A stretch of 64,000 nt of DNA, taken from the NCBI GenBank assembly GCA_015680905.1, contig CM027383.1, positions 83,857,001 through 83,921,000 of the forward strand, in the 5' to 3' direction. Every line of letters begins with the position of its first letter. Position 1 is the first letter of the stretch. Below are positions 27,513 to 60,300 of this stretch, piece by piece. Origin of the DNA: Coptis chinensis. Taxonomy: Eukaryota > Streptophyta > Magnoliopsida > Ranunculales > Ranunculaceae. The position numbers and the translations under genes were made by a program. Under the pieces are notes generated by a model. That model worked only from the letters and a program-made list of their open reading frames with translations. It was not told the DNA's origin and did not search any database.

Positions 27513-28897
27513 TGATAGTTAGTAAATTGATTCTTAATTATCTATAGATGAATATAAACAAATAATGATCAACTACCTTATCAATATTATTTCTACTCTC
27601 AATTCATTATGCAATATAAAGAGTACGGATTCGTTTCACTCCTAAACTACCAAGACTAAATCGAATCCAATTAATCAAACATAAAGAAACAATGGTGAGA
27701 GTAATATTATGTTGAGAATTTATACTACGAGGTACTACTATCAATTTATCTTATACTAATATTAACTAAAGTAATTAAATATAGATGAATCAAATATGGA
27801 GAAAACTAGAGAGAGATTGAAATCCACTTTTTAATTTCTTAACATGCTAGCATAGATTTGTATATAAAACCCTAGTCTAGATATTCTCACACAAGGTTAA
27901 AATATAAAGACTAGACTTTTAATGATCTCTAATTACTTTATACTATCTCTAGTCATAAACTAATTAGCATGAGAGAAAGCTTGTTTCCATTCTCATGGCA
28001 AACTCACTATTATCTAGTTTAGGTTAAACTCTTCATATCTCTAAGTCAAGAAAAATATAAACTTAAACCCTAACAATAAATCTATATTAACAAATCAAGT
28101 CCTCTCCAAGCTTCATTCAAACTCCTTCTAATGGGAGTTTAGCTATGAATCATGGGACTATTATGGACATAATAATAGAAAGAAGAAAACATAATGAATA
28201 ACTATTTTATTAAAGATAACTTGAATTGAATTAATGGTGGCTACAAACTAAACTCATAAACTAAAACTAAAAAGAAGAGAAAGAGAGAGAACCCTAATTT
28301 ATTCTAACTAATGGAAGGGAGAGAGAGAGTTTAGGGTTTTTATTCTCTTATATAATGATACAAAATCGTGCATGGCTTTTTAGGTTAGGTTATGGACTAT
28401 AAATCAAGTCCATAACCCAATTGGTTGAATCTAAAACTTTCAATTCTGGTCATGTTATTGTAGCGCGGGTTTTCACTGACTTATACTACTCTTATTGAGT
28501 CAAGGTCTGGACCATTGGAAAGAGTTTTCTGAGCCAGACATTTTGATATATAATGGGCCCAAATCCGAAGCTTAAGTCCAAAGATATGGCCTTTTGAAGT
28601 TCTGTTGACTTTTCTTCAGCTCTCTAATCCGGTTTGACTTTCACTTAACAGTGTTGACTTGGGTTTTTTAAGGGTTTTTTTCTCCATTAAACTTGGGTTT
28701 TCTTCATGGAACTTCCCTATAGCAATCACTTTAACTTATTTTAGAGCCTAATTAGTAACAAATTTACATTTATTCAACTCCGAAGCCTGTAATACTCAAA
28801 AGCACGTAATTAGTGATAAACCTATATTATTAATAACATAATTGGCTAAATATAAATACTATTAAAGGGTTTAAACTATAGTTTTGGGCTCTTATCA
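27513..28897 (-). repeat. Right LTR (5' LTR of the minus-strand element), 1385 bp
   Basis: It pairs with 14461-15837 and has the same TGATAGTTAG/TTATCA ends. A TTATATAAGAG box on the minus strand near 28346-28356 precedes a CT-rich, AAACCCTAAA-like tract and is the likely promoter of the element. It abuts the ACTGA TSD at 28898-28902. Confidence 0.93.
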
Positions 28898-30836
28898 ACT
28901 GACTTGGATATTTTCAAACATAAACAGGGTACTCATATTCATGTTGTCCTACTGAAGAAATATTTTAAGGATTTTGGAGATATCCTTCAAGAAAATGTGT
29001 TAAAGGAAGGCAATATCTACACATTAGAGAAATTCGACGTTTGGTTTGCGAAAAGTTATAGGCCAGTTGAGAATAATCACAAGATCTTTTTCAAAATTGG
29101 CACATTAATCGTGCCAATTAATGAAGAAGGTATTGACATTGCAAGGCACAAATTTGCCTTCTCCCAGTTTGACACTATTTCAAGACAAGTTGATAACAAG
29201 ACTCACCTAATAGGTAATATTCTGTTTCAATGACCACTTACCTTTGTTAACTTAGAACTTTGTTGCTTGGCTTTCTCCTGACATTTATGTAACAAACGAT
29301 TGTAGATGTGATTAGCCTACTGAAGAGCGTCAGCAACATTACACCCAAATTTGGAACAATTTTCCAGGAAATTGTTATCATGGACAAGAGGTGACTTGCC
29401 GTCCTTACATCTTAAATGAGCCCAATATGAATTTTCCCTTCTAGCACAGGTTATCCTATTATCAGTGAAATGGAATTGACTATTACATTATGGGGTCAGT
29501 TGACCGACTAGTTTCCGGATGACATTTTCTCACAGCAAAATGTTATTGTCATTGCAACTTCACTCAATGCAAAATAAATTCAAGGTTAATAACTTTTTTG
29601 GATTCACACTACTAGAATTCGTTTTGCAGTGCTAATAAAAAAAAGCTACAAGTGTTTAACATGTCCATATTGTTAGGGAAAATTTTTCTTTCATCACTTA
29701 ATGCAACAAAGGTCTACCTCAATTTGGATGCTGCCGTTGTTACTGCCTGCAAAAACAGTTTTATCTATCCTGCTGGTGCACTAATTTGTTCTTCTATCAT
29801 ACAATTTGATCATGTTGCCTCTTACTCATGTCCTTTGTCACATTCCTTTTCATTGTACTTTGGAGGGTACCAACATGCAAATAGACCATCTGGATCCATC
29901 TACAACAGCGGGCCTTTCTGAGGAAGAGCTGCTTAGAAACTGTAGGGTTTCGATAGACAAATTAAAAGAGATGGGTCTAGATGAATCCTACAAGGTAACA
30001 TTCACTCCTTTTAGGTTTATTGTGTTTCGTTGCCTAATTCATTGATGGAAATAATTGTCTTAAAACAGGGAGAAACATATACTTGCTAAGCAACCATCGG
30101 ATATGTCTTCAACACAAATTGGTACTATAATTCATGCAGCAACAACAAGTGTAACAAAAAAGTTGTTGGCAGAGTGTGCCCGGACTGTGGGGTTGAAGTT
30201 GGCAGCCGAAGTGAGAGTTTACTTATAAATTCCTTATCCAACCAATTCTTTGTTAGCTTAACAATCTTAGAAACTTTATTTCAAATGGACAGGTACATGC
30301 TGCGCATGGATGTAGAAGATTCGTCTGGGGTTACTCTATTTGTTGCATTTGATAGAGAAGCTGAATAAATTATTCAAAAGCCGGTTAAGGAATTGGTTGA
30401 CTCCTACAAAAAGGCAACCCCCTACAATTTTACAAATCACCTAGGCATTTGTTTTTTTAGTTAAAAAAAATATAACCTAGGTCTAGCCAATTTGAATTAT
30501 CTTCTCACCGTTATAGGAGAATGACCCACAAGCTGTTCAGACTGCATTGGAACAAGTTGCTGGAAAAGAATTCATTTTCCAAGTGAAAATAAATTACTAC
30601 AGTCATAATAAAGAAAGCCAATCTTTTGTTATCTACAAATTTTTTCCAACTACTGTGGATGATGACACGATAATAAAAGAAGCCATTGAAAAGGTAATCC
30701 TCTGTTCCCTTGACTAAATTTCAGATTAATTCAACTGCATTAAACTAATTCTGGTTCAATACAAGACAACACAAATAGAAGCATTGATTTAGATGATGGA
30801 CTTATTGGAGTTGAGGTGTCAAGCCAGGCTATGTAA

Positions 30837-35671: not shown

Positions 35672-35982
35672 CGGTTTGGCTAGGATGACATTCTTAGCGT
35701 GACATACTTATAGTGACATCCTACTGTTCACGTCCTTAAAGCCCGGCCCACGAACCAACGAAACACAAAACTGAAATTTGTTACAAACCTTCGTCAAACA
35801 GTGTCCGAAACCGAAGCCAAACTCTAAAAACTCCAAACTCCAAACTCCAAATTGAAAAACCCACTCCGGCCTCCCACTCTGACATACCACGTCATTGCAA
35901 GCTTGAAGGACAGGTTAGTTACTTCCCTTATTTTGGTACAATCAGCTATGTCTTCATCAGTAACAAGTGAATTAAAATCATT

Positions 35983-36130
35983 GCATCTGTTTTGATAAAT
36001 TTTTGATAAATTTTCGTTTTTAGGAATACTTGATAAAATCATTGTATCTGTTTTGATAAATTTTCATTTTTAGGACTACTTGATAAAATCATTGCATCTG
36101 TTTTGATAAATTTTTGTTTTTAGGACTACT
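35983..36130. repeat. 62-bp tandem repeat in element A arm (3 copies; 2 in the other arm)
   Basis: A unit containing ATCATTGCATCTGTTTTGAT and TTTTTAGGACTACTTGA is present about three times in the left arm and twice in the right arm (about 39425-39530). Confidence 0.75.
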
Positions 36131-36299
36131 TGAATCTGTAACCATGACTCCTTGTTTCTAAAGGTAGTAACTAGTAGGAGGAGCTAGTTTTTAAAGACAA
36201 GATTGAAGTTTGAATGGTGTTTACTTCAACCTTAAAGTAACAAGATTGAAGTTTGAAGTATGTCGTAAAGTAACAATAATGAGTAAACTGTTGGATTAT

Positions 36300-36525
36300 C
36301 AGTTTGGAACTAGCATATTCGGTGAACTCTGTTAGAGTTTTGAACTTTGTTAGATTTCGGTGAACTCTGTCAAAGTTCGGTGAAGTAGCATATTCGGTGA
36401 ACTCTATCAGAGTTTTGAACTCTGTGACTCTGTCAGAGTTTTGAAGTAGCATATTCGGTGAACTCTGTCAGAGTTCGGTGAAGTAGCATATTCGGTGAAC
36501 TCTGTCAGAGTTCGGTGAACTACTG
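36300..36525. repeat. Palindromic minisatellite, left arm of element A
   Basis: Repeats of TTCGGTGAACTCTGTCAGAG with the palindromic core AACTCTGTCAGAGTT, alternating TTCGGTGAACT and TTTTGAACT linkers. The mirror copy is at about 39034-39250, and a third array lies inside element B. Confidence 0.85.
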
Positions 36526-39033
36526 CAGCTTCTTACGAACTAGTCAAGGTTGAAGTCCTCTTGAGTTGCTCGACCCATAGAATCTAGTTATGGCTATAGA
36601 CCTTCTTGTCTCTAAGATGTAATCCTCTCACATTTGAAAGTACAAACTCCAAGATGTTTGATGAGACTTAGTTATTGAGCAAACATGTAATTTGAAGTTT
36701 GTGAAATCTTGTACACTACTCCGATCCAATCCCATGTTATTGTTCAGTAACCCAAAAGCACTAGAGGGCTTCCTCAGTTTTGTAAAACATGAGCCTTACA
36801 GACATGCGGTTTCCAGTTCAACACTTCAAATCTTAAAGTTACAATAGAAGTAATAAGCTATAGTTACGAAAATTTAGCAGTTCTAAAATCTCTAGGAATA
36901 AAAAGATCATTCTATTTCATACCCACTAGGGAGGTGGACTGTGTGCACTTTCACTTGCGTTTTATTTTCTTAACTGGCTTGGTATTGAAATATTAACTAG
37001 GGATTCTTTAAGTAAAAAGGTTGAACGTCACTAAGCAGAAATCGGTAGCTATCCTCACTGCACATTAAAATTATAACTTGTTGTTTTGTGAGAAGCATAG
37101 TATTTACTTATCCAAAATGGGAATTTTTTTTTGGGTAGATTGTATCCGTGCACTTTTCCTCGACACGGCCCTGCTTGAGAAGTATTTTGAAGAGTTAACA
37201 GTAATTTTTCTTTTAGTTTTTGTTTACCTACTTTTTTGAAGTCCAGTAATATGATTTCTTAAGTTGGTCTAATGTTATTATGCAGTGAAATAAGAGACAT
37301 GTATTTGTAAATTAATAATAAATCTAGGAAATACCAATCTTCGGTACTTTTGTGAGATGCTTTCACTAGTTCTAGTAGCATATACTTTCGGAAGATTAAA
37401 GAGAACGCCGCTAGTAAATGACTAGGAAGAATATTATATTTTTCCTATATTCTCGCTTTTGTGGATTGATGTTTTGTCGTCTCAGATCTTGACATTATTC
37501 AGATGAGCATTGGGAGGAAATGGAAAGAAGTCATTGACATTACCGATCGGATCACATACAGCTTCCATGTAAGTATCATTCAATTGATGAACTCGATGGT
37601 TTGTTTATCTCGAACCTCACTATTTGTTACCCACCTTGTCACGGGATGATTCAAAGAAAGACAAATCAACTAGAAGTCGATACAATGTATGAGGAAGTTT
37701 AGATTACATCATTTGGGGAAAAGGCAGCTACTCAATTGGTTTTACAAATTGCAACAATGTTCTCGATCATCTTTTATCCTCAAAAACTCCAAAGATTGAG
37801 CCATGAATGAGTACATGAGATACAATCTTGGATGTAACAGGTTTATTAAGAGGAAAGCGATATTGATCGGTTTTGCTATTCACAGTTTTTCTGCGATTGT
37901 TAGCATTAAATATTTTATGTGTTCTGTCTTCTTGTTCTGCTGAAATTGCTCTTATTTATATTTTTACACTGCAAAAAGTCGAACTATCTGTAAAACATAG
38001 GTTTTCTGATTTAAATACGGAGGAATTGACGATTTTTCCAAATAAGTTTACATTGAATTTGTCCAATGGTTTCAGATCTGTATGATCGTTTAGTGTCACT
38101 TGTTTTAAGCAAGATGGGTATTTTTGAAAATGGAAAGAAATCTTTTTAGAACCAAATCCGATTAAAGACTCCTTAATTGCTACATTATACGGTAGTTAGT
38201 ATCACCTGTGAAGCAAAACTGATTTTTTAAGGACACGAGCTGTGCTAAAATGTGGTATACAACTCTTTGCATGCAAGCCGAAAGCGCTTATGGTGATGCT
38301 TGGTGTGTGGTGCTCCAAAATCTTTGCCACTTTAAATCATCTGTCGGGTTAGTGAAAGCCCGAAAAGAACTATATAACACATTGTCCAATAAGGTTTTAT
38401 ACTTTGCGTAGCCTATGTTTCTTTTGAAGTAGAAGATAAAACGACCGATATAATCAAAACAAATTCAGATAGAAGCGATTATATTGGACATACAGAATTT
38501 CCCGGTTTACATTTTCTCATCGAAACCCGGACATTAATCGTATATACATCTAAATTCCTTGAAGAAACTAAAATCCATGCATTTCTCATGAATGAATGAA
38601 ACTATTTCCTCAAGCAAGGAATCCAAGTCTTTCTCCATTCTTCTTTGCTAATCGAATCAGTCCTTGTCTTTGCTTTGCATCAGCTCCAATTGATTTGCAA
38701 AATTCAGTAATTACCTATGACAAGGTTGAATCCGCCAATATCAACTATAATGAAATCTCTTGCATTTACGTGTGTGTGTGTGTGCTGCTCTGTTCTTCTA
38801 TTGCTCTTAGAAAGATATAGAGATTGTAACTTTCATCAGGCATCACCACAGACTGAAATGTATGTTTAGCTATTGAATGAAGAAAAAAATGGAGTAAGTA
38901 GTTGTACCTGTGAGTGAAGGGCAATTGCCTTGCCTCTAAGTTGATTGAACCGTTTTTTGCCAACAATATCACGAGTGACAACAACTATAGACAAAAATCC
39001 CAATGTACATAAACAGTGTAAATAACTTAAACA
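36526..39033. other. Centre of element A, no gene recognised
   Basis: Contains short open frames only (for example 37873-38085 and 38596-38820) and a GT microsatellite near 38770. No transposase motif was found. Confidence 0.4.
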
Positions 39034-39250
39034 TCAAAACTCTGACAGAGTTCACCAAATATGCTAGTTCAAAACTCTGACAGAGTCACAGAGTTCACCG
39101 AATATGCTACTCGAACTCTAATAGAGTTCAAAACTCTGACAGAGTTCACCAAATATGTTAGTTCAAAACTCTGACAGAGTTCACCGAATATGCTAGTTCA
39201 AAACTCTGACAGAGTTCAAAACTCTGACAGAATTCACCGAATATGCTAGT
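39034..39250. repeat. Palindromic minisatellite, right arm of element A
   Basis: Tandem AACTCTGACAGAGTTCACC-type units, the inverted partner of the array at 36300-36525. Confidence 0.85.
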
Positions 39251-39825
39251 TCCAAACTGATAATCCAGCAGTTTACTCATTATTGTTACTTTACGACATA
39301 CTTCAAACTTCAATCTTGTTACTTTAAGGTTGAAGTAAACACCATTCAAACTTCAATCTTGTCTTTAAAAACTAGCTCCTCCTACTAGTTACTACCTTTA
39401 GAAACAAGGAGTCATGGTTACAGATTCAAGTAGTCCTAAAAACAAAAATTTATCAAAACAGATGCAATGATTTTATCAAATAGTCCTAAAAACGAAAATT
39501 TATCAAAACAGATGCAATGATTTTAATTCAGTTGTTACTGATGAAGACATAGCTGATTGTACCAAAATAAGAGAAGTAACTAACCTGTCCTTCAAGCTTG
39601 CGATGACGTGGTATGTCGGAGTGGGAGGCCGGAGTGGGTTTTTCAATTTGGAGTTTGGAGTTTGGAGTTTTTAGAGTTTGGTTTCGGTTTCGGACACTGT
39701 TTGACGAAGGTTTGTAACCAAATTTCAGTTTTGTGTTTTGTTGGTTTGTGGGCGGGCTTTTAGGCTTTAAGGACGGAACTATAATTATGTCACTATAATT
39801 ATGTCCTAGCTAAACCGAATATCAT

Positions 39826-39827
39826 CC

Positions 39828-39900
<73 letters not shown>
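39826..39900. repeat. (TA)n microsatellite between elements A and B
   Basis: About 75 bases of almost pure TA repeat separate the right end of A from the left end of B. The left end of A is also next to (TA)n and the right end of B to ATATAT, suggesting insertion preference for TA repeats or expansion of them. Confidence 0.9.
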
Positions 39901-39905
<5 letters not shown>

Positions 39906-40203
39906 TTGTCTAGAGTGCCACTCTTATAGTGACACTCTTATCTCACAATCCTCTTGAACCGTCGGATTACATCCTGATCTCAAAGGATCTAAAAGCTAAA
40001 AATCTTTGGCCCAATACAAAACAAATGGGGGGGGTATATCGGTCATTTTGTACAAAAATCTCAAATCCAAAAGTTTGGTCGACTTCTTCTCCAAAACCCA
40101 ACCCTTCTCCGGCAAAAATTTGGATCTCTCTCTCCCCATCTTCTTCTCCTCACTCACTCGCTCACTCCTCCTCACAAAAAATTTGGATCTAAAAGCTAAA
40201 AGC

Positions 40204-41550
40204 GATCTCCAAATCGCCCATAGAAAATTGAAAATCAAAACCAAAACCGAAAACCTAAAATGGAAAATGGAAACCGAAATTGAAATCAATACTGTCTATG
40301 GTAAGATCTAATGTTTTTTATTTAGATCTGTTGTAAAATGTTCAAGATATTAAATTTATATTGATTTAGATCTTTTGTAAACTGTTTAATATGTTAGTAG
40401 TAGTTGGAAGAATGTGAAATTCTAAGTGATTATTGTGAGAGTTCATTTGCAGTGGTTGATTTGACCATCTTTATCTATTGTTATTTCCATAGTTGTCCAC
40501 ATTTTATTTATTGTTACTAATATAAAATGGAAATTTGCAAACTTGAATATGTGCAAATTTCAGATAGCCTGTTTTAAAGTTGTTATTAGTGGCTTCGGTG
40601 TAGGTTGAATGTCTTTTTCTTTGCTTACGCAAGTTCTTGTTTGGCTTGTTTTGATTTGTTTTATTTTTCTCTCAATTTATCCATAGAAGAAATGATGCAT
40701 GTTTTATTTTGTTTGCTAATCGTGTGTTTTCTCGTTTGTTTCTAATCAATCAGTTGTAAATATTTATTTACTTTTTAAGGTTTTAGGCTATGATTATATA
40801 TCCATTAATTTGTGTCTTTTCTGAATTTTTAATAATCCTCCTTTTTCTAACCTTGTAGATGAACTCATTGCCAATGTACACCCCCGGAAGGGGTATCCTT
40901 GCTACCGATGAGTCTATTGGGAACAATTGGGAAGCGTCTATCCAAAGATCAATTAATGAGAATGCTAATGGTTTGGCCAGTATGCCATCATCATCGTCAA
41001 GAAAATGGTTTCGTTCAATCGTTGAGCCGAGATCTTGGTTGATGGATCTCATGACATTGACCGTTGTCTTGATGTGGATGAAAGAGTACTTGCTGCCTGT
41101 TACAAGGCATTGAATGACCACAAGGTTCTGCTCAAGGGAACTCTATTGAAGCCCAACATGGTGACTCCCGGTTCTGATGCCAAGAAGGTAGCCCCGCAGG
41201 TCATTCCCGAATACACAATTGTGCCTTTGCAAAGAAACAATGCCCCCAAATTGTTCCTCGCAGTGGTGTTCTTGTCGGTGACAGAATGAAGAGCAGGCCA
41301 CAATTAACCTTAATGCAATGAACCAGCTCAAAGGAAAGAAGCCATGGTCACTCTCATTCTCCTTTGGACGTGCTCTCTCTCCAGAGTACTCTCAAGGCAT
41401 GGTCCGGAAAAGTGGAAAATGTGGAGAGCAGCTGCCTTCCTCGCAAAAGGTGTAAGGCAAACTCAGAGGCCACCCTTGGTACCTACAAGGGTGATGCACC
41501 TGTTGGAGATGGTGCTTGAAGGCCTTCATGTCAAGGATTACAAGTCTTGA
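40204..41550 (+). pseudogene. Truncated fructose-bisphosphate aldolase, left arm copy
   Basis: Cytosolic class I aldolase cleaves and forms fructose 1,6-bisphosphate in glycolysis. A leader exon ends at 40300 with CTATG|GT. After a 558-bp intron the second exon (from 40859) begins GATGAACTCATTGCC, the known DELIAN start region. It continues with [12 protein letters not shown] and then jumps to NENANGLAS, so most of the N-terminal half (including the region between SIN and ENANG) is missing. Later blocks are [40 protein letters not shown] (holding the K of the Schiff-base region), [20 protein letters not shown], then after a break [22 protein letters not shown], and the C-terminal LHVKDYKS. 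Frameshifts near 40885, 41030 and 41285-41440 disable it. The retained intron shows capture of genomic DNA rather than mRNA. Confidence 0.85.
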
Positions 41551-41936
41551 TGAAGTTTTGTGTTTTAGTATTGCGATTTTATGAGTAGATACGAGGGAAA
41601 AATTTGGAGATAAAGTCTGTCTTTAAGGCTTAATGTTTAGATCTTTTTTCCTGCGTAGTTGAGTGAGGCTGATTTAATAATTTTTGGGGGCATGTTTGTT
41701 GAGTTCGAATGTTTCTCTCCAAGTGATTTGTCTTGTTTTAATGCTTTCTCTGATGAATTTTATGTTTTGCTCTTTTTTGAACCTCTTTATAGTGTATGTG
41801 TTGACTGTTGTATTTTTCGCCATTTTCATTTGGATTAGGCTTCATGCTAATGTCAATGAGAGTTTAGGTGGTGTATACAACTCCCTATATTTTTCCCCTG
41901 GATTCATCTTTGATTCTATTTGACATAACGATTGAA
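41551..41936. other. Aldolase 3' flank within the left arm
   Basis: Sequence after the aldolase stop, matched in the right arm at about 47090-47476. Probably captured 3' UTR and downstream DNA. The open frame 41684-41923 is not supported as a gene. Confidence 0.5.
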
Positions 41937-42330
41937 TTTGGACTCTAATAGAGGATCTCATTCTTCAGCTAAAGAAACTCTACGACCATCACCGTCACTC
42001 TCCTTTATAGCTCCCATTGTTACAAATCTTGGAGACTTCTTATGACTAGCGACAAAGCTTTGAAGCTCAATTCTTCCACCATAAGTCACACCACCAAAAA
42101 AAGAAGTTTAATAAGAAGGATTAGCACAACGGTTGTAACCATTGGGATTGTGAGAGAGAGTAATCATTAGCCGAACGCCGAAAGACCTGTCGACTACCCA
42201 ATAGAGTCGAAGAAGCCGCCCATGGACTAAGCGCTGCACCCAGATCATTACGACCATCTTGCCACCCCATCGGTTCAAAGGTCCATGAAATTTCACCTTG
42301 CCATGACATATCATCATTGCTACCCAAATG
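41937..42330 (-). pseudogene. Captured fragment of a second plant gene, left arm copy
   Basis: I do not recognise the gene. On the minus strand it reads [20 protein letters not shown], then [20 protein letters not shown] and [13 protein letters not shown], and in another frame YGGRIELQSFVASHKKSP before a stop. The blocks are rich in conserved-looking Trp and Ser and appear to be the C-terminal part of a protein. It runs convergently to the aldolase fragment in the same arm, so at least two unrelated host segments were joined. The mirror copy is at 46704-47075. Confidence 0.5.
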
Positions 42331-42665
42331 GAGTGATTAGAGATGGATGGTATCTACCACCTGGAATACCTCTAGCTTTTCTTGAATAGCAAGACACTGA
42401 AAACTCCCAAAGCCCCCACAAAATATCTTGATGCCATGCCAATATAAAACCAACTCATTTTGAGATCATCACCTTAATTTTTGTTCCGTAAGTTGATATG
42501 ATGTATTGATGTAGATACTATACCACCAGTATAATGCCAACGTTTGTCAACAACAAATTTACCTCAACTCATATGATCATCAATCAACATCAACACAAAC
42601 AAACCAAACTGATAAATTGCCAAAACATCAACATCAATGATATGGACTTAGTACGGCCATATCGT

Positions 42666-42756
42666 GATTTATATATACGAAAATAAAACCGATATTTCAA
42701 TATTTCGCGGTATTTCAAAATAAAAAAAAAACGAAAATCACAAAAATCACGAAATT

Positions 42757-42803
<47 letters not shown>

Positions 42804-43149
42804 AGCTTCTTCTTCTCCAGTTTGAACCAAGCTTCTGGATTAAGGTATTTTTCCACTTTTAATTCGTTTGATTTGTTATTTAATTAGCTTGGATTCGTTT
42901 GAAATAAACCTAGTAAACTTTATTCTTGGATGTTGTTTATATTGTTGTTTAAAACGCGTAATTGGGTATGAACTAACCTAGTAAACTTTATTCTTGGATG
43001 TTGTTTATATTGTTGTTTAAAACGCAAAATTGGGTATGAACTTAGACAAGTAAACAAGTTTAAAACGCTTGGTTCAACTATTTATGAACTTAGACAAGTA
43101 AACAAGTATGAATTGGGTATGAAATTGTTTATATTGTTGTTTAAAACGC
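42666..43149. other. Start of the element B centre, with (CT)n tract
   Basis: Non-coding. A CT microsatellite at 42762-42797 is followed by an intron-like region in which a block of about 55 bp (CTAGTAAACTTTATTCTTGG...TTTAAAACGC) is repeated at about 42909 and 42978. Confidence 0.6.
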
Positions 43150-43790
43150 GATATAGTTCGGTGAACTCTGCCAGATTCTATTGAAGTAAACTTTGTCAGA
43201 TTCGCCGAGTTCGGTGAACTCTCTGTCGAGCTTTCAACTCGTCATTATTCTTCATGTCGTGATTCGTCGAGTTTTGAACTCTGCCAGAGTTCGGTGAACT
43301 TTGTCGTATTCTTCATGCCGTATTCTGTCAGAGTTTTGAACTCGGTCAGAGTTCGGTGACCTCTATTAGAGTTCGCGACGAGGTCGAGTTTTGAACTCGC
43401 CGAGTTCGGTGAACTCTGTCGAAGTTTTGAACTCGTCGTATTCTTCATGCCGCGTTACGTCGAGTTTTGAACTCGCCGAGTTCGATGAACTCGCTGTCGA
43501 GCTTTTAACTCGCCGAGTTTTGAACTCTGCCATATTCTTTCAGTCGATTACGCCGAGTTTTGAACTCGTCGAGCTTTGAACTCTGTCCGAAGCTTTCAAC
43601 TCTGTCGAAGTTCGGTGAACTCGTCAGTATTCTTCATGCCGTGATTCTCGCCGAGTTTTGAACTCGCCGAGCTTTGAACTCGCCGTATTTCTTCATGCCG
43701 TGATTCTCGTTAAAGTTTTGAACTCTGTCAGAGTTCGGTGAACTCTGTCAGAGCTTTCAACTCTGTCAGAGTTTTGAATTCACTGGTAAG
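43150..43790. repeat. Palindromic minisatellite in element B centre
   Basis: About 640 bases of degenerate units of the type GTTCGGTGAACTC, GAGTTTTGAACTC and TCTGTCAGAGTT, interspersed with ATTCTTCATGCCG. The core is the same as in both arms of element A but more diverged. Open frames across it are artefacts of the repeat. Confidence 0.85.
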
Positions 43791-45589
43791 GATTATTCAC
43801 GCTCCAAAGGAGCTTCTAGTTCCAATAAACTATCACAATAGAACCAATCATTCTCGCCAAGCGGGATGAATTCACTGGTAGACGTCCGTAGCCAGTTGTT
43901 GCATAGATCTTTGATGGAAGAAATGACAAGCGTAGATTGTTCAAAACAGCTGGAGCTATTGAAAATATCGGATATCATGCGCCTTGTGAGGTTTCTAGTA
44001 AACCAAGGTCAGCCGTGAAGGGTGGTGGTCATTCTTTGAGAGAGAGATGGTAAGAAGGCAGGCGACAAATGGTGAGGTCTTAAGAATTTGAGGTTCGAAG
44101 GACATACAAATGTATATATTACTTGTGGTGTGTGTATATGGATAGTGCTCAGTGGCATGTAAAACCTTATAATAGTGATCCTACTACTTGTATGATCTAG
44201 CTTGAGGTAGTAATTACTTGTGCATGGTCGAGGTAATAATCCTACTACTTCATGCTCAGAACAATAAGGAATACAACTCCTTGAACGCATGGCGCTTCTA
44301 AAACAAAGATACTATGATGGGATAGTGAAAAAGCTGAAATGCAGGTCTGCATTTTGACTCTGCTTCAAACCCATAGGATGTCTCGATCAAGTGATCTATG
44401 CTGGTATATGGGGAAAGTTACTTATAAACCGATTATTATATTCTCGATAGTTATCGGTCCCCACAAAACTAGTTACTAAGTAAAACGTGGATGAAGCTTC
44501 GGGATATTGCATAACGGCGGAGATTGCCAGTCTATTCGTGTCATTAATTTGGTTCGCTCCCACCACTACCATAGTACCATGTACTACAAGAAGAATCAAC
44601 TTAAACTTACAAAACTTATACTGAAGGATTTCATTGAAAAGTTTATGTGACAATCATAACAATCAAAATGAAAGGTCATTCTAAATTCAAGTTCTCAACA
44701 AAAGAATCAAATAATGATACAAGACCATTATTAACTCTTACACTTGGTCATCATCTTGCCCTGAAAACAAATCCTTACTGATTCATGAGGTTTCTAGATT
44801 TGGTGTTGGATTTGACATATGTGGTAGTATTTATACTGATTCATGTGTTTTTATTGGGGGGTAATTAGGCAAATGGTGGTGGCGGAAGATGGTGAACATG
44901 AGGAAGCAAGTGGAGAGGTTAGTTTTTCTGTCAGACCTTAATAAAGCAGTTTGATTTAACTTTGCTTGACTGATCTGTTTATTCAATTTTTGTTTTTTTG
45001 GGAAGGAGATAAAGAACAAAGAGTTAGATATACAACTAAAGTCAGAAAGTTAGATTGGAAATCTCTTTGTAGTCAAAAAAATGTTATGTTAGGACTCTTT
45101 TGTAAGTGCAAGTTGTTGATATGTAGCAACTTAGCTTTATGTTCAGTAATTCAGACAATGTATTTCACATGGTGTCACATTGTTGAAATATGAAATGATA
45201 GTGATCTTGCTTTGGACTTGTCATTCTTTTCATGTTCACCTAAGATCCTAGGGTTTCATGTATTTCATGTCACATTGCCTTTGGTTATGTTTCTGCTATT
45301 AGCAGGCATTGATTTTAATAGGACGTCTGCACGTCGAGTAAATAGTTATACTACTTACCGTATTTCTGCTTTATGTGCTTTGCTTAGATCTCAGTTTATA
45401 TCCATTCAATGGCTCTTCTTGTGCTCTCCGACAATTTGCGCATTTTAATTTGTCACAGCGAAGTATCTCTATTAATAATCTAATGCAGAACACAAAAATC
45501 CCAATGTTATCAACAAAAATCCCAATGTCATTTACCAAAACACAAAAATCTAATGCAATACGCAATGTTTTTGCCAAAACACAAAAGAT
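43791..45589. other. Centre of element B, unassigned
   Basis: Short open frames on the minus strand at 43793-43978, 44009-44290 and 44396-44653 are not recognised. A GAG|GT donor-like end after MVVAEDGEHEEASGE (44875-44919, plus strand) could be an exon piece. No transposase was seen. Confidence 0.35.
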
Positions 45590-45609
45590 CTGTTTTTTTT
45601 GCCTCTTGA

Positions 45610-46335
45610 ATGGTGTGGTCACACCGTTTGGACTTGTGGCCATATCGTTTGGATTTGAGCTTGCAAAAAAAATGGCGTGTCTGTTTGGACTTTGTCCCAA
45701 ACGGCATGGCCACACCGTTTGGGACTTTAGTCCCAAACGGTGTGGCCATGCCATTTGGGACTAAGGCCAAACGGTGTGGTCATGCCGTTTGGGACAAAGT
45801 CCAAACAGACACGCCATTTTTTTGCAAGTTCAAAGTCCAAACGGCATGGCCACACCGTTGGCCTTAGTCTCAAACGGTGTGGCCATGCCGTTTGAAACTA
45901 AGTCCAACGGTGTGGCCATATCCTTTGGATTTGAACTTGAAAAAAAATGGTGTGTCGTTTGGACTTTGTCCCAAACGGCATGGCCACACCGTTTGGCCTT
46001 AGTCCCAAACGGCATGGCCACACCGTTTGGTACTAAGGCCAAACGGTGTGGCCATGCCGTTTGGGACAAAGTCCAAACAGACACACCGTTTTTTCGATCC
46101 AAGTTCAAATCCAAAGGATATGGCCACACCGTTTGGACTTAGTTGGACTTAGTTCCAAACGGCATGGCCACACCGTTTGGGACTAAGTCCAAACGGTGTG
46201 GCCATATCGTTTGGACTTTGAAGTTGAAAAAAAATGGTGTGTCTGTTTGGACTTAGTCCCAAACGGCATGGCCATACCGTTTGGCCTTAGTACCAAACGG
46301 TGTCACACCGTTTGGGACTAAGTCCAAACAGACAC
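45610..46335. repeat. Array of CCAAACGG/CCGTTTGG palindromes
   Basis: About two dozen copies of the 8-mer CCAAACGG or its complement, paired around GGCATGGCCACA-type centres, give repeated imperfect palindromes of about 26 bp (for example CCAAACGGCATGGCCACACC followed by GTTTGG). They are joined by GACTAAGTCC-type spacers and a longer AACAGACACACCATTTTTT spacer. The unit reads alike on both strands, which produces long overlapping spurious frames on both. It directly abuts the inner end of the right arm. Confidence 0.92.
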
Positions 46336-46703
46336 ACCATTTTTTTTATCCAAGTTCAAATCCAAACGATATGGCCGTACTAAGTCCATATCATTGATGT
46401 TGATGTTTTGGCAATTTATCAGTTTGGTTTGTTTGTGTTGATGTTGATTGATGATCATATGAGTTGAGGTAAATTTGTTGTTGACAAACGTTGGCATTAT
46501 ACTGGTGGTATAGTATCTGCATCAATACATCATATCAACTTACGGAACAAAAATTAAGGTGATGATCTCAAAATGAGTTGGTTTTATATTGGCATGGCAT
46601 CAAGATATTTTGTGGGGGCTTTGGGAGTTTTCAGTGTCTTGCTATTCAAGAAAAGCTAGAGGTATTCCAGGTGGGCGTAGATACCATCCATCTCCAATCA
46701 CTC

Positions 46704-47075
46704 CATTTGGGTAGCAATGATGATATGTCATGGCAAGGTGAAATTTCATGGACCTTTGAACCGATGGGGTGGCAAGATGGTCGTAATGATCTGGGTGCGG
46801 CGTCTTAGTCCATGCTTCTTCGACTCCATTGGGTAGTCGACAGGTCTTTCGGCGTTCGGCTAATGATTACTCTCTCTCACAATCCCAATGGTTACAACCG
46901 TTGTGCTAATCCTTCTTATTAAACTTCTTTTTTTGGTGGTGTGACTTATGGTGGAAGAATTGAGCTTCAAAGCTTTGTCGCTAGTCATAAGAAGTCTCCA
47001 AGATTTGTAACAATGGGAGCTATAAAGGAGAGTGACGGTGATGGTCGTAGAGTTTCTTTAGTGAAGAATGAGATC
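46704..47075 (+). pseudogene. Captured fragment of the second gene, right arm copy
   Basis: Inverted duplicate of 41937-42330, beginning [20 protein letters not shown]. It differs by small changes, for example a stop after LGAAS where the left copy continues LSPWAAS. It has the same disabled state and the same unknown identity. Confidence 0.5.
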
Positions 47076-47476
47076 CTCTATTAGAGTCCAAATTCAATCG
47101 TTATGTCAAATAGAATCAAAGATGAATCCAGGGGAAAATATAGGGAGTTGTATACACCACCTAAACTCTCATTGACATTAGCATGAAGCCTAATCCAAAT
47201 GAAAATGGCGAAAAATACAACAAATCCAACACATACACTATAAAGAGGTTCAAAAAGAGCAAAACATAAAATTCATCGAGAAAGCATTAAAACAAGACAA
47301 ATCACTTGAGAGAAACATTCGAACTCAACAAACATGCCCCCAAAAATTATTAAATCAGCCTCACTCAACTACTGGCGAAAAAAGATCTAAACATTAAGCC
47401 TTAAAGACGGACTTTATCTCCAAATTTTTCCCTCAGATCTACTCATAAAATCGCAATACTAAAACACAAAACTTCA

Positions 47477-48166
47477 TCAAGATTTGTAATCCTTGACATG
47501 AAGGCCTTCTCAAGCACCATCTCCAACAACTGCATCACCCTTGTAGGTACCAAGGGTGGCCTCTCGAGTTTGCCTTTACACCTTTGCGAGGAAGGCACCC
47601 GCCTTCTCCACATTTTCCACTTTTCCGACCATGCCTTGAGAGTACTCTGGAGAGCACGTCCAAAGGAGAATGAGAGTGACCATGGCTTCTTTCCTTTGAG
47701 CTGGTTCATTGCATTAAGGTTAATTGTGGCCTGCTCTTCATTCTCACACGACAAGAACACCCCACCGCAGGACCAAATTTTGGGGCAATGTTTGTCGCAA
47801 GGCACTCACCGTATTATTCGAATGACCTCTCAGGGGCTACCTTCTTGGCATCGAACCGAGTCACCATGTTGGGCTTCAATAGAGTTCCCTTGAGCAGAAC
47901 CTTGTGGTCATTCAATGCCTTGTAACAAAGCAGCAAGTACTCGCCATCCACATCAAAGACAACGGTCAATGTCATGAGATCCATCAACCAAGATCTCTGG
48001 CTCAACGATTGGAACGAAACCATTTTCTTGACAGATGATGGCATACCTGGCCAAACCATTAGCATTCTCATTAATTGATGCTGGATAGACGCTTCCCAAT
48101 TGTTCCAGTAGACTCATCAGCAGCAAGGATACCCCTTCCAGGGGTGTACATTGGCAATGAGTTCAT
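47477..48166 (-). pseudogene. Truncated fructose-bisphosphate aldolase, right arm copy
   Basis: Inverted duplicate of the left-arm aldolase. It keeps more ancestral detail at the N terminus ([14 protein letters not shown], then the same internal deletion joining SIN to ENANGLA) and [20 protein letters not shown], which the left copy has lost by frameshift. It has its own frameshifts near 47965, 47895 and 47800. The C terminus LHVKDYKS and the stop at 47477-47479 are shared. The intron and leader exon follow at 48167-48790. Confidence 0.85.
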
Positions 48167-49133
48167 CTACAAGGTTAGAAAAAGGAGGATTATTAAAAAA
48201 TTCAGAAAGACACAAATTAATGGATATATAATCATAGCCTAAAACCTTAAAAAGTAAATAAATATTTACAACTGATTGATTAGAAACAAACAGAAATCAC
48301 CTGATTAGCAAACAAAATAAACACTGCATCATTTCTTCTATGGATAAATTGGAGAAAAAATAAAAACAAATCAAGCCAAACAAGAACTTGCGTAAGCAAA
48401 GAAAAGACATTCAACCTACACCCTGAAGCCACTAATAACAACTTTAAAACAGGCTATCTGAAATTTGCACATATTCAAGTTTGCAAATTTTCATTTTATA
48501 TTAGTAACAATAAATAAAATGTGGACAGCTATGGAAATAACAATAGATAAAGATGGTCAAATCAACCGCTGCAAATGAACTCTCACAATAATCACTTAGA
48601 ATTTCACATTCTTCCAACTACTACTAACATATTAAACAGTTTACAAAAGATCTAAATCAATATAAATTTAATATCTTGAACATTTTACAACAGATCTAAA
48701 TAAAAAATAAAATAAAAAACATTAGATCTTACCATAGACAGTATTGATTTCAATTTTCGGTTTCCATTTTCCATTTTCGGTTTCGGTTTCGGTTTCGATT
48801 TTCAATTTTCTATGGGCGATTTGGAGATCGTTTTTAGCTTTTAGATCCAAATTTTTGTGAGGAGGGAGTGAGCGAGTGAGTGAGGAGAAGAAGATGGGGG
48901 AGAGAGAGATCCAAATTTTCTTTGGAGAAGAAGGGTCAAATTTTGAAGAAAGTCCACCAAACTTTTGGATTTGAGATTTTTGTACGAAATGACCGATATA
49001 CCCCCATTTGTTTTTGTATTGGGCCAAAGATTTTTAGCTTTTAGATCCTTTGAGATCAGGATGTAATCCGACGGTTCAAGAGGAGTGTGAGATAAGAGTG
49101 TCACTATAAGAGTGGCACTCTAGACAAATATAT

Positions 49134-54195: not shown

Positions 54196-56512
54196 GTCTA
54201 ATGGTTTGGTGCAGCAAAACACCAAACCACAATAGCACAGTGTATACCGTTAGTGGGATAACGAAATAAGACCCAATGGTTTGTTTTTTCAGCCGCCAGT
54301 GATACTGGCGTGCAGCAAAAAAATCGAATCGTTAAATATTGACCTTTGTTATCCGCCATCAGCAGTGGCGGGCAAGAAAAAAAAACAAGTTTTTGTATAC
54401 GCCACTCACATAGGCGTGTAGATAATTATTTCCCCATTTTACCCTTTCTCCCACCTCGGTTTCTCTCAAAAAGAAAAAACACCGGAAAAAAATTAAATAA
54501 ATTACTCTCACTCTTCAACCCCACTTTGGCGCGAGAAAAATAGAAGTCTAGAATTGGCGCCGAATTTTGGATCTCTCATCGCCACTTCCCACAAATAGGT
54601 ATGATTTTGATGAATTTTCTATTTTTTTTTTGTGAGTTTTGAACTGAAATGAAGGGGTTAAGCTTGGTACACTTACTTCTATGGATCAGGTTCTTTGGAG
54701 AACTCACCTTCTTGACGTTTCTCTATTGGGTATGTGCCAGCCATTTTTCTTACTGTTTATATTTACATTGAATCATGTGTGTGCGTCTCTTTTTCTTACT
54801 GTTTATATTTACATTGAATCATGTGTGTCTCTCTGTATTGTCTATACTAGACATGTAGTTTGAAAAGCTTATATATATGACTTGTTAGTTTGTTTTGATG
54901 AAATTAAGGCTGATTAAATTGGTTGTTAAGGATTTATCATAGATTTTGATAAGCCTGGAAAGTGGTAATTCTAGAATTTTGATAGTTTTGAAATGTAGTT
55001 TTTGATCGGTTAACTATATGAATTGGATAGATTGTTGATATTGTCTTTGAGTGTAAATGAGACAACACGATGTAGGATTGCTTAATTTGGCATATCAAGA
55101 TAAATTTGGAAAGGAAAACTCATAGATTGTGATGGTTCCCATGAACACACTAGTTGATGTTGTGCATTGTGGATAAGTCGATATGAAACAATAATGTAGT
55201 AAGTGGAAGTGTAAGTCATGATGATTTTTATAATCAGTCTTCGGTTGGGAACTTGGGTTGGACCAAGCCACTCCTTGAGAGATGCCTTCTGAAATGAAGT
55301 ACCTATGAAATAAAAACAAATTTTAGTTTGTGTTAGTTTATCATACATACTGTCTATGTTCTGCAATACTTTCTTGACTTTTCTTTTGCAGACTTAACCG
55401 TGAATGGAAACTTTCAAGGTTCATTTCTAGAAATAACATGAAAAGAAATAGCAAACAAGTAAAGATTGATAACATGATGATGAGAAATTAATATAGTTTA
55501 CCTGGTATTAATATAGTTAATATGACGAGAAATTAATACTGTTGCCATCTCACACACTTTGAAAGAGTGGTGTGTGCTTGGTAGAATGTGTAGAGAGAGT
55601 GAGGGAATGCTCTTTGTGCATATAGAGGTTTCTAGGAACTAAGACTAGATATATAGAGGAAGAGAAAACACTAAAATGCTTCATTTGTTAATTTCATTGA
55701 TGAGGAAATCGAAGAATACAGTCGACTAACGGTCCATTTGAGATGTTGAAAGGTTGTTTCAGCTTCATGTGTCCATTTGATTTTTTTTTTAAAGCAAATC
55801 AGTGAGTGGTTAACTAACGGTGCCATAACCTTTGATGAAACGGCGGTAGTAGCCAGTGAGACCCAAAAATCCTCTAAGTCCTGTAATCTTTGTGGGTTTA
55901 GGCCAATTGACCATGGTGGTAATCTTGTCAGGATCAGCTACAACACCTTCATGCGTAATCAAGTGTCCTAATTAAGTACTCGAGTTGGTTTTGCGCAAAG
56001 CTGCATTTAGAGAACTTAGCAAAGAGGGTATTATCTTGGAGAATGGTTAGAACTCAGTTTAAATGTTAGCAGTGGAGAGGCAGTGATAGAAAATAAATGG
56101 TCCACAAGGCCATGAGTATTTTTCTAAAAAATCTTTTCAAAGCCTGCCCTGTAATCATCTTAAGAGAAGCTATCTCTTCTCCCCCTTTTAAAGTAATCTT
56201 TTTGCCACCTCTTTTGAAGGATAACTGGAGTTTTTCTAGGTTAAGGAGACTATGATTGTGTGTTGATATGCGTAGAATACTATAGAGTGGTCTAGTTTTG
56301 TGTCATACCATCAGTAGAAAGAAAATGAAGATAAAGTCTAGGTAGTTTAATGCGACACTTAATTTTACTTGTCGTAATGTCATATCATCTAGTTTTGTGC
56401 CATATCATAACTCGCACTTAATTTTATTTGTCGTAATGCAATACCCATTTATTTAGTTTCATATTATAAATTATGTTTGATTTTGGTGTTAATTTATTTC
56501 TCACCAGTTACA
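54196..56512. other. Intergenic or promoter region upstream of the PMD gene
   Basis: No gene is recognised. A direct repeat of about 43 bp (TTCTTACTGTTTATATTTAC...) occurs at about 54747 and 54790. CTCCCC- and T-rich tracts occur near 56180. Acceptor-like CACCAG at 56503-56508 precedes the PMD start. Confidence 0.45.
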
Positions 56513-57240
56513 ATGTTCGGCATTTTACACAAATTCAGAGGTAAGGGTACAAAGTCAAAAAAGTCAGGGGCACCAAATGCCCCAAATCTAGAAGATGTAT
56601 GTGTATGGACTTCTTATTATGAGTTTGATCCTAGTTCTTATCACCGTGTTGTTGTAAAGGAAAATACACACATATCCTTTACTCTTCGTGAAGGTGGTGG
56701 AACGAAAGAAAAAGTTGGTAAGAAAGGGACTTTGGCCCCTGTTATGGAATGGTTGAGCCTAGTGAACTTTGGAGAATTTGAATCGATGCTTCAGAATGTT
56801 GGTTTTGACATTTTTGCTCAAATTGACATTGAAAAATCTGATAGACAGTTGGTTGAAGCAATTGTAGAGAGATGGTGGGACTCTACCCACACATTTCATT
56901 TTCCATGTGGCGAGATAGGCTTTACGCCACTTGATTTCTCAATGCTTACGGGGTTGCGTGTTGGAGAAGGAAAGATTGTAGCGTTTGATTCAAAATATGA
57001 GTTATTTGTTGAGGCTGTCAAATATTTACCTTTTTTAACGGAGGATGAGATTTATAGCGGCAATATCAAACTGAGTCATTTAGAGATGTATACAGCTTAT
57101 ACAGTGCAAGATGGTGTTAATGAAAGAGAAATAGGGTTTCATGCTTTCATGTTATATGTTATTGGAAATGTATTGTTAGCAAACTCCCACAGCAAGGTTC
57201 GTTTGGGATATCTAGCTAGTCTTACTCAAATAGATGAGAT
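56513..57240 (+). CDS. Plant mobile domain (PMD) protein, 5' part, truncated by a LINE
   Basis: PMD proteins include MAIN/MAIL-type nuclear factors and many transposon-borne relatives; the molecular role of the domain is not fully established. The ATG at 56513 (MFGILHKFRGKG) follows a CAG acceptor-like site; an upstream in-frame ATG at 56477 is less likely. The segment LVEAIVERWWDSTHTFHFPC followed by GEIGFTPLDFSMLTGLRVGEG matches the PMD signature (ERWxxxTHTFHxPxGExxxTLxDxxxLxGLxxxG). About 243 codons are open without a stop. Homology ends at SLTQIDEI, where the next residues (FFAK, stop) come from the T-run of the inserted LINE. The rest of the gene should lie to the right of the window. 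It may be a host gene or part of a MULE that carries this domain. Confidence 0.75.
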
Positions 57241-57329
57241 TTTTTTTGCTAAATAAGTTAAAAATTCTATTAAAGTAAAGTATTATACAACTATATTAAC
57301 ATGACATCACTCCCCCTAATTTACTTGGT

Positions 57330-60300
57330 TCAAACAAATCTCGTAAAGGTTTGGTAAGGCACCTCCCATTTATGAATCCATGGGGGTTTCTCATTACAAA
57401 CAATAAATAGATCTTTCTCTAGGTTTGAGGCTTTTTTGGCTATGTCATCCGCCACGGTATTCCCTTCCCTCCATATGTGAGAGAGGTAGAAAAAATGAAG
57501 TCTCTTCAAGCAAGTCTGCCATCTGTACCTCATCTGCCATGACATTGAATTAGAGGTGAAAGCATTAACTGTAGTAGCTGCATCCGATTCTACCCACACA
57601 TTCAGCCAACCCTTCTCAATAGCTATTTCCACACTTTCCAAAATACAAATGCACTTGGCCCAATAAACTTGTAGCTTCACCCAATCTTTTTCCACGAATA
57701 AGTAGAAAATTCCCATCATGATCCCTAAAGGATGACCCATACCCCGCCTGACCTGGATTACCTTTAGCAGCACCATCGGTATTGATTTTGACGACCCGGT
57801 TTTGGCGACAGCCAAATGCCTTTGAACCTTCTTCGGTCTTTGTGGGTCTCATGCTCAATCCCCAATTCCGAGTAATCTCCAAGTCGTGTAAAGAGTTGTG
57901 GGTGTGAGATTTTGAGAGAGTAGCCGCATTATGTATCTCTTTTCGAATCAGATTGCAGCAATACTGAAGTGTGGGAGTTCTTCCTTCAAAATGTGCCCTA
58001 TTTCTGACTTTCCAAATAGCAACCATGCCACCACTAACTGCCATCGTCCACAACTATTTCAGAAAGAGACTTACTTGTTGGGACCGACTCATTGCATCTT
58101 TGCTGTTGCTAAAGCCTGCTATGAATTTGAACTTTCCCACTAGCCAATTCCAAGTCTTTTCGGCAAAAGTGCATTGCCACAAGAGATGGTTCAGGTCTTC
58201 TTCTTGCAGTCCATAGCTTACATTTTGACGCTAGCTGGATACCCTTTTCCTTTGCTGCTAAATCAGTCGCTGCTCTTCCAATATGCATATGAAGTTTCCA
58301 AGCGTTAGCCGCTAGCTTGGGATGAGTAAAGGATTCCAAACAGCTCCATGCCAGTGAACCCTTACTCCTTTATTTCTTATAGCTTCAAAAGCCGAGGCTG
58401 TAGAGAAATCACCTTTTAAGTCAGGTAGCCATATTAGTGTATCATCTTCAGCCCTTTTCATGTTGTTAATGCTTAGGCCAACATTTTGAATCAGCTCCAG
58501 GATAGCAGGTAGGCATGATTTGTGTCCGTTGCCAATGATGGAGCTTACTCTAGATGAACAGCCTCTGAGTTCCCTGTCAGAAAGATGGAGTGCTTCCTGG
58601 ATAGAGTGTGTGCCTGCCCATCTATCCCTCCAAAAATCAATCCTATGACCTAACCCCACTACCCATTGGCTTCTTGAATAAACTTCATTCAATGCTTTCC
58701 TAATACCAGGCCATATAGAAGAGTTCTTATGATAACCAATTTGGGCACCATCTGTCGTTAGGTACTTGAGTCGCATAAACTGTGCAAAGTCATCCAAGCC
58801 ACATTTAAAATTCCAGGCAAGTTTCATAGACATGGCAAGGTTAAATTCTTTAAGCTTTTTTATCCCCAAGCCTCCTTCCTCAACTGGTTTACAAACCAGT
58901 TCCCATTTCACTATGATTGCCTTTTTTTTACTCGAATCCCCTGACCACAAGAAGTTTCTCATAGCCCACTCTGCTTTTTTAATGATGCTCGTTGGCCACT
59001 TATACAGTGCCATGTTATGTATAGGTATACTGGAAAGCACTGCCTTGATCATGATGCTTCTCCTTTGAAAGGACTGTAGCCTTCCCCTCCAATTGGCCAT
59101 TTTCGATCTGATTTTGTCAAGCAAAATGTGAACCCCTGCTTTAGTGACTCTTCCCCTCAACAATGGTACACCCAAATATTTCTCCGGAAGAGCCCCCTCT
59201 ACCATACCAAACTCCCCCGATATGGCCCTTCTCCGCACAAGTGTAATGCCACCCATAATGAGCATGCATTTGGCTTTGTTAAGAAACTACCCCACTGCTT
59301 GTTGGTATCTAATGAGCAAGTCTGAAATATGTCTCAGCCCTCTGATCTTACCATTCACAAAGAGGATTATGTCGTCAGCAAAGAGTAGGTGTGAAGGACC
59401 CATGTGCCCCTTGTTAATCACCATCGATCCCACCAGTCTCTTGTTTCTCAATTCTAGGATACTTTTACTCAGAACCTCTTCAGCTAATGCAAAGAGGAGA
59501 GGTGATAAGGGGTCTCCCTACCTGAGACCCCTTTCCACTGAAAAGAAGCCGCAAGGCCCACCATTAATAAGGACTGACATTTTAGCTGACTTTAGAATAC
59601 AGTGAATCCAGTTGATGAATTTAGTTGGGAAACCAAATCGGGTGAGAACTTGAAATAAGAATTCCCAACTTAGAGTATCAAAGGCTTGAGAAATATCAAT
59701 CTTCATAACCACATTCCCTACATATCTTTTTATGTCCAGCTCATTCACCATTTCTGATGCAAGCCCTATATTAGAGTGTACGCTTATACCTGGAATAAAA
59801 CCTGCTTGCTGCGGAGATATGATCGCCCCAATGAATTTATTCAGTCTGACTTGGAGGATCTTAGAAATAATCTTCATGTTGAAGTTACTCAAACATATTG
59901 GCCTGAATTGGTTCAGTTTGACTGCATTTCTCTCCTTAGGGATGAGTGACAAGAAATTGGAGTTGAAACCTTGTGGAATTCTTGGATCAAGAAAGAAGGA
60001 CTGTATTGCAAAACACACATCAATCCTTATAATATACCAACAAGCATGATAGAAGTAACCTGAGAATCCATCTGGCCCTGGAGAGCTATCCTGGTTCATC
60101 ATAAACACCACTTGTTGTATTTCTTCATAACTGGGGTTTGGGACAAGAGCATTGCATCCATAGCTGAGAGAGAAGGCTGGATGGATTCCAGTAGAGCATC
60201 ATCTTGAATCATAGGATTTTTCAAGAATTTTTATGTATACGAATTCACTGCGTATTCTTGAATTTGAGTTTGTGTATATAGTAGCACACCTTCCTCATTT

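Follow-up and report, generated by a model that had tools for sequence, protein, structure and literature searches.

The window analysed in this work, a 64,000-nt stretch of Coptis chinensis DNA (C7:83857001-83921000; source genome 935.6 Mb), contains a long inverted repeat in which a piece of a cytosolic fructose-bisphosphate aldolase gene and a piece of a second gene are present in both arms, inside terminal repeats of the Mutator-like element (MULE) type. The two inverted arms of about 2.76 kb, proposed in an initial annotation that was made from the letters without database searches and that suggested computing their identity, were confirmed by BLAST: they aligned end to end with 94.5 % identity as assembled (2809 columns, 4248 bits), whereas 20 Markov shuffles of the arms gave at best 28.3 bits, which rules out a chance repeat. 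The features of the locus are as follows.

39837..39900, (TA)n microsatellite between the neighbouring element (E1) and the element described here (E2)
39905..42665, + strand, left arm: terminal repeat, aldolase fragment, receptor-like-protein tail and the first bases of the palindromic array
39901..40412, + strand, terminal inverted repeat of the left arm (MULE), beginning CGGTTTGTCTAGAGTGCC; the same block lies at both ends of copy L024
40415..41876, + strand, captured aldolase segment of the left arm: 3' part of intron 1, exon 2 (40859-41550) and 3' flank; matches locus L026
42027..42478, - strand, fragment of a leucine-rich repeat (LRR) receptor-like protein gene, membrane-anchor end and beyond, left arm, antisense to aldolase; assigned via its relatives L029 and L030
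42666-46365, spacer of 3.7 kb
42666..42682, arm-spacer junction, TGATT-TATATATA-CG-AA, replacing the ~106-bp right terminus of the canonical element
42683..45600, - strand, internal region of the right-hand element (within the spacer)
44785..46552, - strand, separate repeat module with a palindromic AAACGGTGTGGCCACACCGTTTGG array (45629-46376), also present in L031
46366..49128, - strand, right arm; with the spacer it makes up one near-complete family member, reversed (as in L009)
46553..47003, + strand, the same receptor-like-protein fragment, right arm
47152..48606, - strand, captured aldolase segment of the right arm (exon 2 ~47477-48166)
48609..49128, - strand, terminal inverted repeat of the right arm (MULE); inner coordinate read off the arm alignment

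A global alignment with 2726 aligned bases contained 120 substitutions and 38 indel events, and perfect runs of at least 21 nt (the longest of 234 nt) covered 79 % of the arm. The inner part (41891-42665) was nearly identical between the arms (99 %). Gene conversion of the inner arms is not needed to account for this, as other copies of the family are nearly as alike (2-17 substitutions in ~455 positions against each arm).

The class I aldolase family PF00274 was recognized in both arms (best E 2e-26, Pfam) and the best PDB matches were chains named cytoplasmic or cytosolic aldolase. The parent of the captured piece was found at C8:70254137-70255945 (locus L026), comprising exon 1, an intron, the full exon 2 and the 3' region. 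The end of the intron, the C-terminal codons and the 3' flank in the arms, all listed in the initial annotation, match this locus. The same annotation had also assigned a leader exon of aldolase to the arms, and this part had to be abandoned. The similarity between L026 and the arm begins at ~40415, within ~10 nt of the inner end of the terminal repeat of L024, a family copy with 550-bp terminal repeats that are 95 % alike, both located at (TA)n, and with aldolase in between; therefore the first ~510 bp of the arm belong to the element. The aldolase's own leader exon is thus ruled out for 39901-~40412, which is the terminal repeat found at both L024 ends. The left-arm terminal repeat carries a GTAAG donor-like site at ~40301.

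In comparison to L026, exon 2 of the captured piece lacks ~343 nt (340-345) and a further 11-13 nt. Both deletions occur in 19 of 19 aligned arms, so they look real and ancestral. The description of the aldolase as damaged therefore holds for these deletions, and most of the small-scale damage is probably sequencing error, as argued below. The frame of L026 is open apart from one place at ~4850 (C8), where it has one base fewer at GTCAGGTG-ACAG than the frame of the paralogue L027 needs. This 1-nt frameshift adjoins two CAG sites, and both an error and a real frameshift are possible.

A second gene fragment, likewise noted initially in both arms, is present and matches L029 and L030 over 42027-42478. 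The frames of these relatives run into an LRR stretch and a membrane anchor just past the matched part; their Pfam LRR matches stayed below the curated cut-off, and the L029 frame matched receptor LRRs in PDB, the best being FLS2 (E 3e-31). The fragment looks like the tail of an LRR receptor-like protein gene, which, judged from this tail, we take to be a receptor-like protein without a kinase.

The element termini read CGGTTTGTCTAGAGTGCCACTCTTATAG..., and (TA)5 or a longer tract lies at the edge in 24 of the 31 terminus hits (30 ends, one listed twice). The seven hits without it are the right end in the window (49133), L010, the left end of L011 and four abutting ends in L021/L022. Two element ends abut at L021:1508-1510, and L021 and L023 (C101:136-144 kb) are family members ~5 kb apart in the same orientation. 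The terminal core GGTTTGnCTAG resembles, in a comparison made by eye only, the mask GGGGTTTGCTAGAACA given for MuTAnT searches in one description of these elements (PMC4486113). By eye, no clear target-site duplication of 9-11 bp was seen at the ends in the window, where the microsatellite context makes it unreadable. None of the 10 element open reading frames (ORFs) scanned, out of 119 listed, belonged to a transposase family, and no search aimed at transposase was made.

The canonical copy L009 (~6.7 kb) has the order terminus, aldolase, second fragment, palindromic array, internal region, terminus. The right arm together with the spacer corresponds to this element reversed and deprived of its ~106-bp right terminus. 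Beyond the 17-bp junction at 42666-42682, a second copy running the other way contributes its left 2.76 kb. The match begins at 42683, leaving the junction outside, in all seven further full-length spacers listed (40 of 789 candidates scored), so that, as far as this search shows, the junction appears to be single-copy and found only here among the matches listed. The 44785-45599 part of the AAACGGTGTGGCCACACCGTTTGG module gave at least 24 further stand-alone matches in the same search (40 of 789 candidates scored).

When 40300-42660 was used as a DNA query, at least 42 matches were obtained (40 of 252 candidates scored), and 20 places were fetched as pieces of 9-9.9 kb, which did not always hold the whole element. 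There are at least 17 other copies of the arm in the genome, i.e. at least 18 places. Nineteen arms (17 from elsewhere and the two described here) were aligned with the parent L026; this alignment included neither the paralogue L027 nor L028. No second aldolase-bearing arm was detected in the fetched 9-9.9 kb of the 17 other copies (E 1e-20, >100 bp), and L021, L024 and L025 showed a second terminal-repeat stretch only. The aldolase capture is therefore not specific to the hairpin arrangement. Away from the CAG/CTG sites considered below, the tree of copies was nearly star-like, and no unmasked site grouped the two arms to the exclusion of the five other full-length copies.

The differences between the copies are concentrated at CAG and CTG (together CWG), which form the symmetric CHG motif of plant methylation. 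With L026 as the reference and with fixed differences kept, 275 of 421 alignment cells were altered at CAG and 344 of 550 at CTG. For other triplets the fraction was near or below 10 % (CAA 45/505, CTT 44/469, CAT 3/374), and triplets overlapping CWG were in between (e.g. GCA 141/350). In a position-by-position count of the aldolase piece, from which fixed differences were dropped, 1308 of 24310 cells differed: 964 of 4413 within 1 nt of CWG, 73 of 908 within 1 nt of CG and 271 of 18989 elsewhere. The density of differences was thus 0.218 near CWG versus 0.014 elsewhere, a 15-fold excess. Altered CWG sites were found in 19 of 19 arms.

The kind of change was scored in 7-nt windows centred on CWG, after removal of 22 sites at which one other string occurred in at least 75 % of copies (a fixed difference or shared deletion) and of sites with fewer than five copies. 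Changes were found in 642 of the 906 windows, comprising 307 changes of length, 259 gains of CG and 55 pure C>T/G>A changes. In control windows with no CWG or CG nearby (90 sites dropped), 453 of 5247 were changed, 178 in length, 91 by gain of CG and 17 in the form expected of deamination. Hence it is the frequency of change and the CG gain that mark CWG; a length change alone does not. Retention of CWG between copies was 0.475 in the arms and 0.479 in the spacer, compared to 0.877 and 0.911, respectively, for other triplets and 0.561 and 0.555 for CG triplets. The naturally diverged gene pair L026/L027 showed no CWG effect (retention 0.569 for CWG, 0.571 for other triplets and 0.342 for CG). 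Outside the surroundings of CHG and CG, the copies differed from the arms by 2.3-16 per kb.

The comparisons directly demonstrate the repeat, the family, the parent gene, the termini, the boundary of the capture, the shared deletions and the specificity of the differences for CWG. These data point to the following account of the locus, which we consider likely, with good confidence. The right arm and spacer would represent a near-complete, reversed copy of a non-autonomous Pack-MULE that is young and targets (TA)n. Between MULE terminal repeats this family has taken up an intron-bearing piece of the cytosolic aldolase gene L026, its parent, together with what looks like the tail of an LRR receptor-like protein gene. 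Through the 17-bp junction this right-hand element would be joined to the left 2.76 kb of a second, opposite copy. The copies would be methylated at CHG and probably silent, and most of the frameshifts and substitutions in the aldolase piece would be nanopore consensus errors at methylated CAG/CTG. As for the inversion, two array members may have been brought together by loss of the sequence between them, or the left end may have been copied onto the right end. The junction contains TATATATACG, which is what a (TA)n target and the initial two bases of a terminus would give, and this tips the balance somewhat towards an origin from array neighbours. Copying of the left end is possible, and acquired sequence can join extended terminal inverted repeats according to one report on such elements (PMC3310237).

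We infer from the sequence pattern that the platform was nanopore, that the copies are CHG-methylated and that polishing failed in multicopy sequence; if the calls are wrong at CHG-methylated C, the plant itself probably lacks most of the frameshifts seen in the aldolase piece. The gain of CG would fit a base caller that knows methylated C mainly in CG. In Klebsiella, about 70 % of the consensus errors obtained with the default models of then-current Oxford Nanopore callers were reported to fall in methylated CCWGG (PMC6591954), and plant methylation has been named as a likely source of lost nanopore accuracy (PMC9749173). No paper joining nanopore basecalling errors, CHG, assembly and polishing was found in the literature search, a result that leaves room for an earlier description of the effect.

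Several observations weigh against this account. CG triplets were also often altered (e.g. ACG 26/50, at few sites), and length changes were common in controls too (178/453 versus 307/642 at CWG). When the CHG and CG motifs of any copy were masked with 3 nt around them, the arms differed at 10 of 1608 positions outside the mask and 90 of 1111 inside it, but the mask uses the motifs of every copy, miscalled ones included, so the figure of 10/1608 is partly circular. The altered fraction of CWG was uneven among the copies, from 0.24 (L020) to 1.00 (L023), and a four-gamete test failed to discriminate CWG (229/300) from the other sites (134/253). CWG sites are not altered everywhere alike, because the inner arm, which as assembled holds nine CWG in 775 bases (exon 2 of the parent L026 has 55 in 1053), is nearly identical between the arms. 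Variability is among the highest in 40005-40305 (33-55 substitutions per kb between copies) and the left arm has just four CWG in 39905-40412 despite the high variability of the terminal repeat; after masking, the arms still differed at 6 of 356 positions in 39905-40440. The parent L026 itself carries the 1-nt frameshift, and polishing of a single-copy locus, besides low methylation, may account for its otherwise clean frame. Platform and methylation, finally, are read from the letters of the assembly.

Other repeats of the window also lose CWG, with retention of 0.35 (17 sites) and 0.44 (32 sites) in two direct pairs; the retention was 0.71 (48 sites) in E1 versus 0.53 (79 sites) in the arms described here. 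The loss of CWG alone is therefore not special to the Pack-MULE family. The manner of loss was recorded as well: plain C>T/G>A accounted for 4 of 11 and 5 of 18 lost CWG in the direct pairs, 7 of 14 in E1 and 6 of 37 in the arms, and gains of CG numbered 3 and 1 in the direct pairs, 1 in E1 and 16 in the arms.

Ordinary neutral decay of old pseudogene copies would account for frameshifts and substitutions as assembled in arms that are 94.5 % alike, and for the raised differences in the CWG-poor terminal repeat. It does not predict the 15-fold denser differences within 1 nt of CWG in the aldolase segment (0.218 versus 0.014), nor the lack of a CWG effect in the naturally diverged pair L026/L027. 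Decay or C>T deamination as the main cause was rejected for the aldolase segment on this CWG pattern, and we regard general decay as the least probable of the explanations considered; both processes may contribute in the variable, CWG-poor terminal repeat. It is also conceivable that the copies really differ at CWG because methylated CHG in silenced Pack-MULE copies, through mutation of the methylated C or its enzymatic removal, turns into mixed substitutions and short indels at a rate far above that of the remainder of the captured gene. The sites are those of the CHG motif, 19 of 19 arms are affected and other repeats of the window lose CWG too, all as such hypermutation would have it. Deamination, however, predicts C>T/G>A, which made up just 55 of the 642 changed windows compared to 259 with a gain of CG, and a background of 2.3-16 per kb outside the CHG and CG surroundings would require an extreme rate, which makes real hypermutation very improbable. 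If it did operate, it would be methylation-directed and would destroy captured exons, rich in CAG/CTG, first.

The inverted repeat itself could be the product of misassembly or of a chimeric read, as the junction was seen only here among the matches listed. The left arm, however, starts, as other copies do, at an intact element terminus within (TA)n, and in unmasked columns five differences are private to the left arm and three to the right arm, so there is little likelihood of an artefact.

The locus might, alternatively, act as Mu killer (Muk) does in maize: a read-through transcript would form a hairpin, diced to 21-24-nt RNAs that would methylate the family in trans and maybe act on L026. 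Such a trigger is compatible with the proposed Pack-MULE anatomy. An inverted MULE derivative with long arms that are near-identical outside the CHG and CG surroundings (10/1608, on the partly circular mask) is what it calls for. The arms have 1482 of 2741 21-mers in common as assembled, and of the 1383 21-mers of the parent mRNA-like sequence 296 are intact in the left arm and 334 in the right arm. The family-wide CWG pattern fits a silenced family and the maize Muk locus provides a precedent, as summarized in a published account (PMC3440606). Yet the junction was found only here among the matches listed, and all 19 aligned arms have altered CWG (0.24-1.00), so that the hairpin is not needed to explain silencing. 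Plants methylate repeats in general, and this explains the CWG pattern without a hairpin. Within what scars can reveal at a single-copy locus, the frame of L026 is open except for one frameshift. A Muk-like trigger is thus unlikely, though less so than hypermutation or an assembly artefact.

The interpretation offered in the initial annotation is partly supported. It had proposed that an inverted MULE derivative carrying aldolase could be a natural source of small RNAs against the aldolase gene or be tightly silenced for that reason. The inverted arrangement of a MULE derivative with aldolase is supported, though much of the divergence between the arms is probably consensus error. The loss of all 21-nt matches, which the annotation gave as grounds for refutation, was not seen, since such matches to aldolase are retained, as counted above; the paralogue L027 shares none of its 1340 21-mers with the arms, and the L028 piece shares 40 and 39 of 540. 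Because intact 21-mers remain with the parent mRNA-like sequence, a hairpin, if made, would have L026 as its target, and a small-RNA role of the inverted repeat is possible. The tight silencing is favoured by the CHG-methylation-like pattern in the arms and the spacer, and the Pack-MULE family is probably methylated and silent.

With its ends near (TA)n and its captured intron-bearing gene piece, the locus fits a (TA)n-targeting Pack-MULE. Like the MuTAnT, SaTar, TAFT and Micron elements, which are (TA)n-targeting non-autonomous MULEs, it has ends at (TA)n tracts; its core GGTTTGnCTAG resembles the MuTAnT mask when compared by eye, and the joining of E1 and E2 by a microsatellite recalls SaTar arrays, in which adjoining elements are described as joined in this way (PMC5907723). 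Unlike SaTars of 0.4-1.9 kb, L009 measures ~6.7 kb and contains host gene fragments. As in Pack-MULEs, MULE-type terminal repeats surround a captured intron-containing gene piece whose parent, L026, still exists elsewhere; here, in contrast, two gene fragments and a further repeat module are present and two members are inverted with 2.76-kb arms. The locus shares with Muk the inverted duplication of a MULE derivative and the long hairpin expected if it is transcribed, but its arms hold host-gene fragments and no transposase domain was found in the 10 element ORFs scanned. As for the Dcm-methylated CCWGG of Klebsiella, the errors are likewise concentrated at a motif known to carry 5-methylcytosine, whereas here the motif is plant CHG (CAG/CTG), the sequence is a multicopy transposon in an assembled genome, and platform and methylation are deduced.

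Other features of the window were recorded. The neighbouring element E1 (~35672-39835) has (TA)n flanks and inverted arms of ~0.85 kb; its terminus is related, by eye, to that of E2, and subrepeats of its TGTCAGAGTTCGGTGAACT type appear again within the E2 spacer, at ~43160-43780. Reading frames for a Helitron-like N-terminal domain and a PIF1 helicase lie as separate pieces at 8669-10442. Direct repeats at 14461-15838 and 27513-28898 (92.9 % identity) are perhaps the long terminal repeats of a gag/protease element, with gag at 25721-26077 and an aspartyl protease at 18105-19016. A plant mobile domain frame is located at 56411-57253 (+), and reverse transcriptase and RNase-H-like frames at 57333-60198 (-) are probably those of a long interspersed element. 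Rfam (gathering threshold) and ARAGORN gave no matches in the whole window.

The analysis calls for caution with gene fragments in multicopy transposons, which, although ridden with frameshifts as assembled, may be intact except for real deletions; pseudogene calls, ages and arm divergence can be overestimated in such assemblies. If the account given here is true, the letters of an assembly alone record CHG methylation in repeats. A single-copy inverted Pack-MULE bearing a piece of a housekeeping gene, with intact 21-nt matches to its parent, would be a place to study small-RNA action or silencing.

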